Assembly: GCA_028718605.1 (NCBI GenBank)
Contig: JAQULM010000001.1
Location: forward strand, 160,785-193,698
DNA: 32,914 bases
Origin: Patescibacteria group bacterium
Lineage (GTDB): Bacteria > Patescibacteriota > Patescibacteriia > UBA10025 > JAHIVO01
Direction of reading: 5' to 3'
The notes below the pieces were generated by a model. The model saw nothing but the letters and a program-made list of their open reading frames with translations. It ran no database searches and was not told the origin of the DNA. A program made the position numbers and the translations under genes. Shown piece by piece: positions 9,923-32,914 of this stretch (position 1 is its first letter; every line of letters starts with the position of its first letter).

Positions 9923-10540
9923 ATGGTTACAATCTTGCCGAAAAAGAAACAGGAAATTCTCTCTTTTCTCAAGGAGTATATCACTGAACATGGCTACGCG
10001 CCAACGCTTACCGAAATTGCGCGACAATTTAAGGTATCTTCACTCGCAACCGTGCATGAACACCTGCAGTTCCTGGAGGACGCGGATCTTATTATTCGTG
10101 ATGCAAATGAAAAGCGAGGCATCCGCATTCCCGAAATGGAACGGCATTCCGCAAACCAAGATGCGGTCATGGTCCCGGTCGTCGGGCTTATTACGGCTGG
10201 CGAGCCGATCGAAGCAATCGAGAACCGCGAGCAGGAATTACCGGTGCCGAAAGAACTCGTCAAGAGCAAGAATGCGTACATCCTCAAGGTGCGCGGCGAT
10301 TCGATGATCGAGAGTCTCATCGCTGACGGCGATTTTGTTATCTGTGAAAAAACCGACTACGCGAAGGATGGCGATACGGTCGTCGCAATGCTTGAAGACG
10401 GAACCGCTACTCTTAAAAAATTCTTTAGGACAAAAAGCTTCATCCGCCTCCAGCCTGCGAATAAACAGTACAAGCCCCGGTACGAAAAAAATGTGATTAT
10501 CCAGGGGAAGGTCATGGGGATTATTCGCAGTTTTACATAA
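9923..10540 (+). CDS. lexA: LexA repressor
   Basis: LexA represses SOS genes and cleaves itself when stimulated by RecA filaments. From the ATG at 9923 (MVTILPKKKQEIL) it is 205 residues, the normal size; the longer track ORF from 9551 overlaps the opposite-strand gene. The N-terminal winged helix has the LexA signature GYAPTLTEIARQFKVSSLATVHEHL (about 24-48). The C-terminal S24 peptidase domain has the Ala92-Gly93 cleavage site in LITAGEP, catalytic Ser127 in RGDSMIE and Lys165 in TATLKKF. All residues for autocleavage are present. A palindrome sits over its promoter. Confidence 0.96.
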   Translation: MVTILPKKKQEILSFLKEYITEHGYAPTLTEIARQFKVSSLATVHEHLQFLEDADLIIRDANEKRGIRIPEMERHSANQDAVMVPVVGLITAGEPIEAIENREQELPVPKELVKSKNAYILKVRGDSMIESLIADGDFVICEKTDYAKDGDTVVAMLEDGTATLKKFFRTKSFIRLQPANKQYKPRYEKNVIIQGKVMGIIRSFT

Positions 10541-27711: not shown

Positions 27712-27740
27712 TTGACAGGAAATCGAATCTGTACTAAGAT
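27712..27740 (+). promoter_or_regulatory. Promoter upstream of the giant adhesin, TTGACA-N17-TAAGAT
   Basis: TTGACA (27712-27717) and TAAGAT (27735-27740) are 17 bp apart, the same hexamers and spacing as the pilus operon promoter at 20943. The expected start near 27747 gives a leader of about 430 nt before the ATG at 28181. Confidence 0.75.
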
Positions 27741-27974
27741 GCCATATTACGTAAGTTTATACATTGCTCTTTACTTTTTACCTCTTTCAAAGGAGGTTTG
27801 AGGAGGAAAACACGCTCTTTCTACAAAATGCATCTCTGGAGGGAATGCAAGAAGACCAATTACAGGCTATAAAACCAAAAAGAAAAGTACGCAGAAAATC
27901 GAGTTAACTGATAGTGCTTATCGATAATCGCCATTCAACGTGGCGAAAAATTATAGCTTGTCATTGGTTTTTTT

Positions 27975-28094
27975 GTTTGCTTGGCAAAATTTTCAAGCCA
28001 GACGAACTTCAATAGATTAAAAACTGGCGCAGAAAATTTGGACAAGCAAACAACCCTGACGAATCCGCGACCAGAGTCGCGGATGAGGAAGGGT
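27975..28094 (+). ncRNA. Candidate structured leader RNA: two adjacent hairpins with tandem G.A internal loops
   Basis: Hairpin 1: GTTTGCTTG (27975-27983) pairs with CAAGCAAAC (28043-28051); a GCA/GGA loop follows; AAATTTTC (27987-27994) pairs with GAAAATTT (28032-28039); then GCCAG (27997-28001) pairs with CTGGC (28024-28028). Hairpin 2 begins two bases after the first: ACCCT (28053-28057) pairs with AGGGT (28090-28094), a GACGA/GAGGA loop follows, then ATCCGCGAC (28063-28071) pairs with GTCGCGGAT (28076-28084) around a CAGA tetraloop. In both internal loops the opposed bases can form G.A pairs on each side of a C-G pair. No U tract follows, so it is not a simple terminator. It does not match any riboswitch class I know. 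Function is unknown. Confidence 0.6.
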
Positions 28095-28180
28095 CTCAAA
28101 ACGTTAAAATCAACCCTCCTTTCTATATATACATTTAATAAACCATCTTAAGTAACCAAAGAATCAACTAAGTAAAACAT

Positions 28181-31100
28181 ATGGACATGGCAATCTTCCC
28201 AAAACGAAGTTGGAAACAAAAAGTCTGGAAAGCAATTAATATCGTTTCGTCAGCCGCCCTCGTCTTTAACATGACGATGGTCGGCGTGTTCCTGACGCCG
28301 AAAGTTGCCGAGGCAACCGTCGTCTGGCCGTCAGATGGCCAATGGAATATTCCTATCTGCAATGATGACATTGCGGACGACGAAAACCCTGATTCTGCGG
28401 ATCTCTACTCTGTTGGTACGTCACAGTATGGCGCAGCGTATTACATCGATGCGAACAACCTATACGTCCGCGAACGAATTAAGGGAAATCCCGGCGCACC
28501 AGGAAGCCTGGACCAGTACGCATGGGTTTTTATGATCCAGAAAGATGCAGCGACCACTGACTACGATTTTCTCGTCTCGGTGCGCGGAAGCGGCAGTGGC
28601 GAAAATGTTGAGCTCTGGCAGAACACCTCGCCTGATGGTCCGATTGACTGGAGCCCGATCTTCAATGACCCGGCTGATACGCAGCTCAAGACATGGAACA
28701 CAAGTTCTAATGTGCGTCGCGTAGGCGTCGGCAGCAATTACTATATTGATTGGCAGATCCCGATCTCCGAATTAACATCACGGGGCGTTGTGGTAAACAA
28801 CGGCAAGTTCAGCACCAACCACGGTTTATTCTGGGCAACTTCGACGAACGCGAACAATTACAACAAAGACCACCTGAACTGTTACGATGCACCTGACCTG
28901 AGAATCTTGAAGGAAGTCCGCAAGAATAATACAGGCACCTGGTTCACTGACGGCCGAACCGCTGGCGTCACTGCTAATGCAGGCGATACGCTCAATTACC
29001 GCGTCACCGTCACGAACGTGGGCGGCCCGACTCAGGGCGCAACGAGCGTTGTCGATGAACTTGGCAAGAATTATAACGATGGCGATGGGGACGCTGCCCA
29101 TAACGTTGACCCCGCAACCCAGTACTCGATCTGGACCGCATCGAACAACCTCAATAGTGACGGCAATGCGAATCCTTTCACGGGCAGCTGGGGCAATGGC
29201 TCAGCAGACGGGCAGGCTAATGATACGCTTTCGCTCTCGATTCCCCTCATCTCGGGCGGCGGTGCGCAAGAGCAATTCAACTTTGACGGCATATCACGGA
29301 ATGACCTGGCTGTCGGTACGTATTTGTTTGAAAATGTCGCTACCTTTACCCATGTCGTCACCCCGGACCTGACGCTGACCGGTTCTGCTGAAACCGACAT
29401 CAAGGTAAAAAAGACAGGGGCCTGCCAATTGACAATCACCAAAACTGTCGACAAGGCAAACGCAGTGCCTGGCGATACGCTCCTGTACACATTGACGTTC
29501 AAAAATACCGGAACCATTGACTGCACCGGTGGCGGTGTCCGTGTCGACGATACGGTACCTGCCGGTGTTACGTATACGACTTGGCACGACCAATCATCGA
29601 ATGTTAATTTCGGATATGGTTATAACGAATTCGGAACAATCAATAGGGATGGTTTCGATGAAACCAAGAACCTCCTCAGCTGGAACGCCGGTGTATTGAA
29701 TCCTAACGAAGAGGGTTGGGTAAAATGGAAAGCAACAGTTAACACAATTGATTACTGCACCGAGAAAGACATCAAGAATGTCGGCAAGATCTACGCCGAC
29801 CAAATCCCAGCAGGTGTCACTTCAAACGAAGTCGTGACCCACGTCACTGCCCCCTGCTACGGCAAGCTGAAAGTTCTGAAGTACGTGGACAGCGGCAGCG
29901 CAACGCCTGACCAGTGGAGCTTTACGCTCGGTGCGCAAACAAAATCACCGGCTGCAGGCCAGAACTGGGTACTCTTCGACAATCTTGTTCCCGGCGATTA
30001 TACGGTGACCGAAAGCTCGATTGCAGACTACCACCAGGTGTCTTCAACGTGCGACAACGTAACCGTTTCTCCGAACCAAACAGCAACGTGTGAATTCCAC
30101 AACACGCGCGATACTGGCAACCTGAAGGTCAATAAAGCTGTCGATACCGACGGCGACGGAAAAGTTGACCAGACGAATCCCGCTGGCTGGACCTGGGACC
30201 TCAACGCAGGCAACCAGAACTATGCCATGGGTTCAACGCAAAATGTTGTTACCGGTTCATACACCGTTTCAGAGGACCAACATACCAATTTCCATTCAAC
30301 CGGCTGGGCGTGCACTGACGGCACATCGGGTACTGGCGAACAGCTCACGGTGAATGTACCGACAACGGGCGTCTCCTGCACCTTCACGAACGCTCGTGAC
30401 ATGGGCACGCTTATCGTCAAGAAGCACGTGGTCAATGACAACGGCGGCACTGCTGACGCATCTGCATTTAATGTTCACGTGAAACAAGCAACGGATGTTG
30501 CTGGCAGCCCTGCTTCCGGCAGTGAAACCGGCACATCATATTACCTCCCGACCGGCACGTATGTCGTGAGCGAAGACGCGCCGATATACGGATACGCGCA
30601 GACAAGCATCGTGTGCGACGGCCAAACAACCGACACGGTGAATGTCGCGTACGGTGAAACCAAGTATTGCACGATTACCAATGACGATATCCAGCCCAAA
30701 CTGACCGTGACCAAGGTTGTCATCAATGACAACGGCGGCACCGCAGTTGTGGCTGACTTCCCGCTGTTCGTTGATACGACCAGCGTAACCTCAGGCATTC
30801 AGAACGGCTTCAATGCCGGCAGCTACGTCGTGTCTGAGACGAACAAGCCCGGGTACAGCGCTTCAATCACCGGCGATTGCGATGCGAACGGCAACGTTAC
30901 CCTCGCTGTCGGTGACGTGAAGTCATGCACGATCACGAATGACGACCAGGGCGCGAAGCTCGTCGTCACCAAGCACGTCGTGAACGACAATGGCGGCACC
31001 AAAGTCGCCGCTGACTTCACGATCAACGTGACTGGCACCAACGCTTCCCCTGCTTCTTTCGCGGGCGATGAGGCTGGTACTGACGTGGCGCTTGACGCCG

Positions 31101-32914
31101 GCTCATACAGTGCGGATGAAATCGAGCTCGCTGGCTATGCCAAGACGCTCGGCGCTGACTGCAGCGGCACAATTTCAGTTGGCCAAACCAAGTATTGCAC
31201 CATTACGAACGACGATATTGCGCCAAAGTTGAAACTCGTGAAGACCGTCGTGAATACCTACGGCGGAACCAAGCAGGTTTCCGACTTCCCGCTGTTTATC
31301 AATGGCAACCCGGTTACCAGTGGCGCATGGAATACGCTCACCGCGAATGTTCCGTACACGGCGTCTGAAACAAACCTGTATGGATATGAAGCGTCGGCAT
31401 GGGGCGGTGATTGCGGCCGCGATGGTTCAATTACCCTTTTGCCTGGTGATCAGAAAATTTGCACCATTACAAACTCTGACATCCAGCCAAAACTCACCGT
31501 CACCAAGGTTGTCAACAATGACAATGGCGGTAATGCGGTCGTGGCTGACTTCCCGCTGTTCGTTGACACGACCAGCGTCACCTCAGGCGTACAGAACGGC
31601 TTCAATGCCGGCAGTTACGTCATCTCTGAGACGAACAAGGCTGGCTATAGCGCTTCAATCACCGGCGATTGCGACGTGAACGGCAACGTTACCCTCGCTG
31701 TCGGTGACGTGAAATCATGCACCATCACGAATGACGACATTGCGCCAAAACTGAAACTTATCAAATATGTTACCAACGATGATGGCGGCACCAAACAGGT
31801 CGCTGACTTCCCGCTGTTCATCAACGGCAATGGTGTCACCAGCGGCCAGTGGAACACCCTGACAGCAGGCGTCCCGTACACTGCGTCAGAAACATCTGAC
31901 CAGGGCTACACAGCGTCAGCATGGGGCGGTGATTGCGGCCGTGACGGCACGATCACATTACAACCTGGCGACCAAAAAACCTGCACGATTACCAACGATG
32001 ACATTCCAGGAAAAATCTGGGGTTACAAGTACAATGACGTGAATGGCAACGGCCAGCTCGATGCGGAAGACCAGCCCTTGGACGGATGGCAAATCTGCTA
32101 CAGCGTAAACGATTGCGTTACCACGGGCGATGGCGCATGGGACGCGGGATACTACGAATTCACCGATCTGCCGGCAGCGACGTACACCCTGTACGAAACG
32201 CTCATACCGGGCTGGATCATGACCTACCCGGTAGCGAGCCATACGGTCAACCTCGCCAACAACGGCAATCTCCACCTCGACTTCTTCAATTTCCAGCTCG
32301 GAAAAATTTGGGGGTATAAGTTCAACGACATGAACGGCAACAGTTCATGGGACAACGGAGAACTCGCGCTTGGCGGTTGGACGATCGCCCTCGGTGGCGC
32401 GTCATCGAATTCCGCGGTTACAGCGCCCAACGGGTACTACGAGTTCACCGGCTTGACCGCTGGTACGTACTCGCTATCCGAAGTGCAGCAAGACGGCTGG
32501 GTCCAAACAACTGCGAACCCTGCCAACGTTACGATCACTTCGGGAAAAGTCAGCGAGAACAATAACTTCGGCAACTTCAAGACCGGGAAAATCGCGGGCC
32601 ATAAGTGGAACGACCTGAACGGCAACGGCGCATGGGATGGCGGCGAACCAGCGCTTGCTGGATGGGAAATCAAGGCCACGAACGGCACAGCGGTGAAAAC
32701 CACAACTACTGATGCAAATGGCGAATATGCATTCTCCTTCCAGCCGCTGGAAGCGGGCGTATGGACCATTTCAGAAACGCTGCAAGCAGGCTGGACACAG
32801 ACAGCACCGGCAGCCCATACCTACTCAGTCGGCGTGCATTCAGGCACCAACGTCAGCAACAAGGACTTCGGCAACTTCAAGGATGTCCGCATCAAGGCGT
32901 TCAAGTACAATGAC
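28181..32914 (+). CDS. Giant secreted adhesin-like protein: DUF11-like, prealbumin-like and SdrD-B-like repeats, partial at its 3' end
   Basis: The frame is open from the ATG at 28181 to the window edge (1578 codons, no stop), so the ORF track misses it. Residues 1-46 are a long signal peptide (KRSWKQKVWKAINIVSS, hydrophobic core, then PKVAEA). About 47-240 is a domain resembling CBM9/DOMON folds (YYIDANNLYVRERI). About 245-560 contains two DUF11-like domains (NAGDTLNYRVTVTNVGG and VPGDTLLYTLTFKNTG). About 561-1274 has eight prealbumin/SpaA-like domains ending CTITNDD or similar. From 1275 come SdrD-B-like units starting GKIWGYKYNDVNGNG with calcium-type loops; the fourth is cut by the edge. 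Such proteins build cell-surface fibres or S-layer-like coats and bind other cells. No Shine-Dalgarno is seen; ATG at 28187 is an alternative start. The anchor lies outside the window. Confidence 0.9.
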   Translation, partial: MDMAIFPKRSWKQKVWKAINIVSSAALVFNMTMVGVFLTPKVAEATVVWPSDGQWNIPICNDDIADDENPDSADLYSVGTSQYGAAYYIDANNLYVRERIKGNPGAPGSLDQYAWVFMIQKDAATTDYDFLVSVRGSGSGENVELWQNTSPDGPIDWSPIFNDPADTQLKTWNTSSNVRRVGVGSNYYIDWQIPISELTSRGVVVNNGKFSTNHGLFWATSTNANNYNKDHLNCYDAPDLRILKEVRKNNTGTWFTDGRTAGVTANAGDTLNYRVTVTNVGGPTQGATSVVDELGKNYNDGDGDAAHNVDPATQYSIWTASNNLNSDGNANPFTGSWGNGSADGQANDTLSLSIPLISGGGAQEQFNFDGISRNDLAVGTYLFENVATFTHVVTPDLTLTGSAETDIKVKKTGACQLTITKTVDKANAVPGDTLLYTLTFKNTGTIDCTGGGVRVDDTVPAGVTYTTWHDQSSNVNFGYGYNEFGTINRDGFDETKNLLSWNAGVLNPNEEGWVKWKATVNTIDYCTEKDIKNVGKIYADQIPAGVTSNEVVTHVTAPCYGKLKVLKYVDSGSATPDQWSFTLGAQTKSPAAGQNWVLFDNLVPGDYTVTESSIADYHQVSSTCDNVTVSPNQTATCEFHNTRDTGNLKVNKAVDTDGDGKVDQTNPAGWTWDLNAGNQNYAMGSTQNVVTGSYTVSEDQHTNFHSTGWACTDGTSGTGEQLTVNVPTTGVSCTFTNARDMGTLIVKKHVVNDNGGTADASAFNVHVKQATDVAGSPASGSETGTSYYLPTGTYVVSEDAPIYGYAQTSIVCDGQTTDTVNVAYGETKYCTITNDDIQPKLTVTKVVINDNGGTAVVADFPLFVDTTSVTSGIQNGFNAGSYVVSETNKPGYSASITGDCDANGNVTLAVGDVKSCTITNDDQGAKLVVTKHVVNDNGGTKVAADFTINVTGTNASPASFAGDEAGTDVALDAGSYSADEIELAGYAKTLGADCSGTISVGQTKYCTITNDDIAPKLKLVKTVVNTYGGTKQVSDFPLFINGNPVTSGAWNTLTANVPYTASETNLYGYEASAWGGDCGRDGSITLLPGDQKICTITNSDIQPKLTVTKVVNNDNGGNAVVADFPLFVDTTSVTSGVQNGFNAGSYVISETNKAGYSASITGDCDVNGNVTLAVGDVKSCTITNDDIAPKLKLIKYVTNDDGGTKQVADFPLFINGNGVTSGQWNTLTAGVPYTASETSDQGYTASAWGGDCGRDGTITLQPGDQKTCTITNDDIPGKIWGYKYNDVNGNGQLDAEDQPLDGWQICYSVNDCVTTGDGAWDAGYYEFTDLPAATYTLYETLIPGWIMTYPVASHTVNLANNGNLHLDFFNFQLGKIWGYKFNDMNGNSSWDNGELALGGWTIALGGASSNSAVTAPNGYYEFTGLTAGTYSLSEVQQDGWVQTTANPANVTITSGKVSENNNFGNFKTGKIAGHKWNDLNGNGAWDGGEPALAGWEIKATNGTAVKTTTTDANGEYAFSFQPLEAGVWTISETLQAGWTQTAPAAHTYSVGVHSGTNVSNKDFGNFKDVRIKAFKYND
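30689..32002 (+). repeat. Interleaved prealbumin-like repeat units A1-C-B1-A2-B2 in the adhesin
   Basis: A1 (30689-30946) and A2 (31481-31738) are both exactly 258 bp and nearly identical. B1 (31217-31480) and B2 (31739-32002) are both 264 bp and closely related. The single unit C (30947-31216) separates A1 from B1. The order indicates that a B-A-type block was duplicated or recombined in one step. Confidence 0.9.
32003..32914 (+). repeat. SdrD-B-like repeat units at the adhesin C-terminal part
   Basis: Units of about 96-98 residues start GKIWGYKYNDVNGNGQLD, GKIWGYKFNDMNGNSSWD, GKIAGHKWNDLNGNGAWD, and a last one VRIKAFKYND at the window edge. The DxNGN loops are calcium-site-like. Confidence 0.9.

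Follow-up and report, generated by a model that had tools for sequence, protein, structure and literature searches.

The window, that is, the whole stretch of 32,914 nucleotides analysed here, comes from a Patescibacteria group bacterium (genome G000) and ends within an 8.5-kb gene that encodes a giant surface protein of 2842 aa; the C-terminus of the protein, LPVTGG followed by a membrane helix, lies outside the window. A consensus promoter and a leader of about 430 nt precede the gene. The leader contains two octamers of the pattern YGCWCNTT, a small hairpin (P2), a long-range stem of 21 bp that ends in a U-run (P3) and, directly 3' of the P3 stem and its U-run, two interrupted hairpins (P-A and P-B) (Table 1). 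No Shine-Dalgarno sequence is visible at the giant gene (28160-28181), nor at its counterparts in f1 and f2. A first-pass annotation of this DNA had proposed the two hairpins as a regulatory RNA for the adhesin and had reported neither the promoter nor P2 or P3. A small ORF ending at 27907 (MQEDQLQ..) was considered as a leader peptide and discarded, as it is not conserved in the related genomes G004 and G005.

Table 1. Features of the leader and of the gene downstream, in window coordinates
Feature	Position	Strand	Remarks
Sigma-70 promoter, TTGACA-17-TAAGAT	27712-27740	+	predicted transcription start about 27747
boxA-like motif TGCTCTTTA	27765-27773	+	YGCWCNTT pattern
Second boxA-like motif CGCTCTTT	27813-27820	+	43 nt 5' of the CCAA of P3
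Hairpin P2, TGCAT/ATGCA	27829-27849	+	GGAGG in loop at 27838-27842
P3, 5' arm	27852-27872	+	covariation over 12 sequences
P3, 3' arm	27951-27971	+	covariation
U-run closing P3, terminator-like	27968-27974	+	pyrimidine run, mostly U, in 15/15 homologues
Hairpin P-A	27975-28051	+	first of the two hairpins annotated earlier; folding, covariation with G038, repeat in G028
Hairpin P-B, tandem G.A, REP-like	28053-28094	+	second of the two; folding, palindrome similarity
Surface protein gene, 5' part	28181-32914	+	signal peptide, SpaA_2, SdrD_B, DUF11

Distribution and conservation of the leader

With the N-terminus of the protein as query, one clear orthologue was found (G005, same order, 60% identity), and the leader of G004 was located via the upstream pilin-like gene. 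The leaders of the window, G005 and G004 have in common a promoter with the -10 box TAAGAT, the GGAGG hairpin P2 and P3. At the DNA level, searches of relatives gave chance matches only, so structure models were needed, and homologues were sought with three covariance models of P3 (R1, R2 and R3). R1 found one strong locus per genome in all six genomes of the window's order examined, and the three models together added nine genomes in four other families (f53: G140, G193 and G066; f23: G026, G159, G095 and G207; f35: G038; f66: G121). Four R3 matches (L116-L119) and one R2 match (L107), with other genes nearby and high E values, were set aside as chance. No additional credible P3 match came from 287 genomes drawn across the phylum, and the viral contigs searched with the P-A and P3 patterns gave none. 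Rfam 15 held nothing above the gathering threshold for the leader or for the hairpins, which had been thought undescribed from the start; the matches below threshold are noise from eukaryotic miRNA, IRES and lncRNA families, and the G005 leader (L016) had no match.

All 15 P3 copies lie 49-311 nt upstream of the same type of gene. The product of the next gene downstream shares in every case a signal peptide of roughly the form MxINLxPrKxWrx...NMSMVGxxxxPxxAxA (G121 being the most divergent), followed in most of the 15 by adhesin-like or von Willebrand A-like sequence. In G079, a gene with the same type of signal peptide lacks P3 and has a short hairpin, GACCACG/CGTGGTT, then AGTTTTG, before its start codon (L017, about 1417-1445), which is perhaps a replacement of P3. 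The leader as far as the P3 U-run, about 220 nt, has its own promoter and a terminator-like end, as would an independent small RNA that acts in trans and leaves the adhesin gene to be reached by read-through. However, it stays in cis in all 15 genomes, upstream of one gene type, with no credible P3 copy outside that position, and we regard a role in trans as highly improbable.

The elements between promoter and U-run recur in the same arrangement. Of the 15 leaders, 14 have TTGAC-N-TAnnnT boxes 119-222 nt upstream of the 5' arm of P3, and nine have the -10 box TAAGRT. The octamer YGCWCNTT occurs 27 times in the 15 leaders against a shuffled mean of 0.64 (maximum 4), a contrast made optimistic by the generalisation of the pattern after the leaders had been read; its density in the leaders, 12 per kb, is about 40 times that found over 782 kb of G000, where it is about 0.3 per kb. 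The stem sequences of P2 differ, while its pairing and GGAGG are kept in seven leaders; those of f53 have no clear P2 and differ in detail. GGAGG itself is present in 10/15 leaders (shuffled mean 1.1), 14-18 nt before P3 in 8/15. Between P-B and the start codon, G005 has a further promoter-like site with TTGACA (L016, about 1412-1440); this site, ATAGCTCTTGACAAAAAAAC, is nearly identical to one upstream of P3 in G002.

The strongest conservation of structure is that of P3. Double changes were already seen in 5 of the 21 pairs in a first alignment of three sequences; with 12 sequences, 10 of the 21 pairs show double compensatory changes, a number that none of 500 shuffles reached, and 92.5% of cells are paired in the true register as against 38-56% in slid registers. 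The sequence kept in P3 (CCAACAAAA) exceeds what termination requires. On the plus strand, G.U-only sites outnumber A.C-only sites (10 against 2), from which we infer that the molecule under selection at P3 is probably the plus-strand RNA; the four differences in the G002 arms are all G.U-compatible. The arms are asymmetric (the 5' arm has AAAAA or AAAAG where the reverse-complemented 3' arm has AGAAA), in one and the same orientation wherever the asymmetry is present. The loop, about 45-130 nt across homologues, is poorly conserved between families. Three f53 genomes, which also carry the upstream promoter, have a promoter-like site within it (TTGAC[AT]-17-TA(T/C)GGT or TAGGTT; L073, L074 reverse, L099 reverse), and transcripts from this site would bypass the P3 stem. 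A promoter between inverted repeats would suit a DNA element, either a promoter segment that can invert or a pair of operators. This is the least probable of the explanations we considered, since the P3 loop holds no promoter in the window's order and both the constant orientation of the arms and the G.U pattern argue against it; on the latter two we rejected an invertible promoter.

Comparison of the 15 loci shows that the predicted promoter, octamers, P2, and P3 with its U-run are conserved, and follow one another in this order, upstream of genes for giant surface proteins in several family-level groups. We conclude that these genes are almost certainly preceded by a conserved structured leader RNA. 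Judged from its sequence, it is an undescribed element, with no Rfam family, that natural selection has preserved in ultra-small bacteria of several families.

The hairpins P-A and P-B

P-A begins with GTTTGCTTG (27975-27983), followed by the symmetric loop GCA/GGA, the middle helix AAATTTTC/GAAAATTT, a third internal loop (AA/GCA) missing from the earlier list and the terminal helix GCCAG/CTGGC. P-B is made up of ACCCT, the loop GACGA/GAGGA and the helix ATCCGCGAC/GTCGCGGAT. Both interrupted stems fold as they had been drawn: the plus-strand RNA reaches -56.2 kcal/mol as against -29.3 +/- 3.8 kcal/mol for dinucleotide shuffles (z = -7.1; 0/200), with z = -7.3 when folded as DNA and z = -5.8 as minus-strand RNA. 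On the plus strand, each of the six mismatches in the symmetric loops is a G.A or an A.G, again as the first-pass annotation had it. Within the final 12.4 kb of the window, no inverted repeats (at most 120 nt apart) are longer than P-A and P-B, and the P-A/P-B element is single copy in G000.

After the U-run, P-A/P-B are found in four of the 15 leaders, those of the window, G005 and G038 and, shortened or degenerate, that of G004; they are absent from the leaders of G001, G002, G003, f23 and f53. Between the window and G038, 25 columns of pairing are kept in P-A with seven double changes and none broken, so the covariation of P-A is real; in the GCA/GGA loop, the A.G is retained and the G.A has become G-C. 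The tandem G.A of P-B is present in the window, G005 and G038. In the G038 leader, P-A, P-B and a second, partial P-A stand in tandem (L114 reverse complement, about 1620-1860). We tried P-A as an attC-like site and rejected it: G038 fits the attC core by chance and the window does not.

The P-A/P-B unit also occurs in G028 (f25), where it is repeated around a Fic gene and follows the U-run of a phosphatase terminator. The latter copy sits directly 3' of an ordinary terminator U-run, the same placement as after P3. Two G028 copies, not three, are certain, because those at the ends of contigs C13 and C62 share 99 nt without a difference and may represent a single physical copy. In the same genome, direct repeats of a palindromic element of 130 nt stand on either side of the Fic-domain gene (L132, L166, L167).

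P-B is similar to CATYCTGAGC..GAAGRATCT palindromes of its own and related genomes, which have the same tandem G.A plus a TGTC tag; G000 has two canonical copies and G005 five. It has the ATCCT-GA...GA-AGGAT plan and the CTC tail of these palindromes, and in this and in the pairing of palindromes it is like the CGTC/TGTC-tagged REPs (Di Nocera 2013, PMC3733652). G005 and G004 come close to the REP-type plan AT-CCT..AGG-AT plus tail, and the window has ACCCT/AGGGT. Unlike those REPs, P-B in the window has no CGTC/TGTC tag at its end (AACA precedes it), P-A is of another kind, and the high copy number expected of REPs was found neither for P-A/P-B nor for the canonical palindromes. Because palindromes of this REP-like type themselves contain tandem G.A, the G.A loops need not signal a ligand- or protein-binding RNA, as had been supposed. 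We think it rather likely from all this that P-A/P-B derive from a repeat that favours terminator U-runs and has been kept as structure in some leaders.

The earlier proposal of a regulatory RNA for the adhesin thus stands in part. A conserved cis-acting leader is strongly supported and its plus-strand sense is supported, but the gene-linked conserved part (27765-27974) lies upstream of 27975-28094, and the hairpins are absent from most homologous leaders. That P-A/P-B are themselves an adhesin-specific protein- or ligand-binding regulator could draw on the covariation of P-A and the shared tandem G.A of P-B. We nevertheless consider this improbable, given the many leaders that lack the hairpins, the unrelated genes that adjoin the G028 copies and the likeness of P-B to genome-wide palindromes.

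A candidate attenuator and its relatives

A cis-regulatory role for the leader is probable. The stem, the U-run directly after it (15/15) and their position between promoter (14/15) and gene form the layout of a terminator or attenuator. The location in cis, the promoter, the repeated signals, and a stem with a U-run before a very long gene are best fitted by attenuation or antitermination, and we tentatively propose, at somewhat less than even odds, that the leader is a transcription attenuator. P3 and its U-run would act as a conditional intrinsic terminator, and a factor bound to the octamers or to P2 of the nascent transcript would let RNA polymerase continue into the gene, Nus-type antitermination being one candidate for its action. 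P-A/P-B are the 3', variable part of the long leader of the adhesin mRNA. In this model, REP-like palindromes placed right after the U-run in some lineages would be carried in the 5' UTR whenever polymerase reads through, perhaps with no effect, perhaps as a shield for the 5' end of the mRNA. The length of the P3 loop, long for an intrinsic terminator, the surplus of kept stem sequence and the promoter-like site inside the f53 loops count against attenuation, and a non-systematic look at the leader found no antiterminator pairing.

In the main rival reading, the leader is a 5' stabiliser and translation element without termination, in which P2 and P3 (with P-A/P-B where present) block 5' decay and GGAGG holds 30S subunits. 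The fixed distance of GGAGG without a conserved ORF, the very stable folds, the tolerance of variable hairpins downstream and the single strongly promoted surface-protein gene per genome all fit such an element. It leaves unexplained, however, the conserved U-run right after P3 and the repeated octamers, and we find it rather unlikely.

In the attenuator, the octamers are one place where a factor may bind. TGCTCTTTA is identical to the core of the E. coli rrn boxA. The genome encodes NusB (E = 2e-17) next to RNase III. The boxA consensus used for comparison is GYTCTTTAANA (PMC5725501). The leader of the own 16S gene has no YGCWCNTT, so the octamers are putative boxA sites. That rRNA leader has a terminator-like stem, CCCGTTATAGCATCGGG then ATTTTTTG, between promoter and 16S (L206, about 10104-10129, G000 C1), a layout that speaks for the attenuator. 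We regard as unlikely a more specific form of the attenuator, Nus-type processive antitermination, in which the boxA-like repeats would load a complex that carries polymerase past the terminator stem and through the 8.5-kb gene, with REP-like palindromes settled at the U-run in some lineages.

Almost nothing is known of how Patescibacteria regulate their genes, and surface adhesins are believed to determine how these cells attach to hosts. A conserved leader at a single giant surface-protein gene in each genome gives direct access to that regulation: the P3 U-run is its predicted switch point, and the octamers and the GGAGG hairpin are its predicted signals. It also carries a caution, for a hairpin with tandem G.A can, in these genomes, be a repeat element and not a riboregulator.

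Among known systems, the rrn and lambda boxA, suhB boxA, ops/RfaH and LoaP leaders are alike in having a promoter, short signals in the nascent leader, and a stem with a U-run before a long gene, and NusB is encoded here. The likeness is one of sequence. The octamers differ in being repeated and variable and in not occurring before the 16S gene of the same genome, and neither a boxB nor an ops element was found. The STAB-SD of Bacillus thuringiensis cry3A (PMC4113751) and surface-layer leaders likewise have an SD-like GGAGG, without an ORF, before a protein that is probably made in bulk; in contrast, GGAGG here is in a hairpin loop far upstream, and its stabilising role is that of a candidate. 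The protein downstream resembles fibrillar adhesins in its domain make-up (DUF11/SdrD_B stalks) and its sorting-like, LPxTG-type C-terminus, and what is new at this locus is the leader, not the protein.
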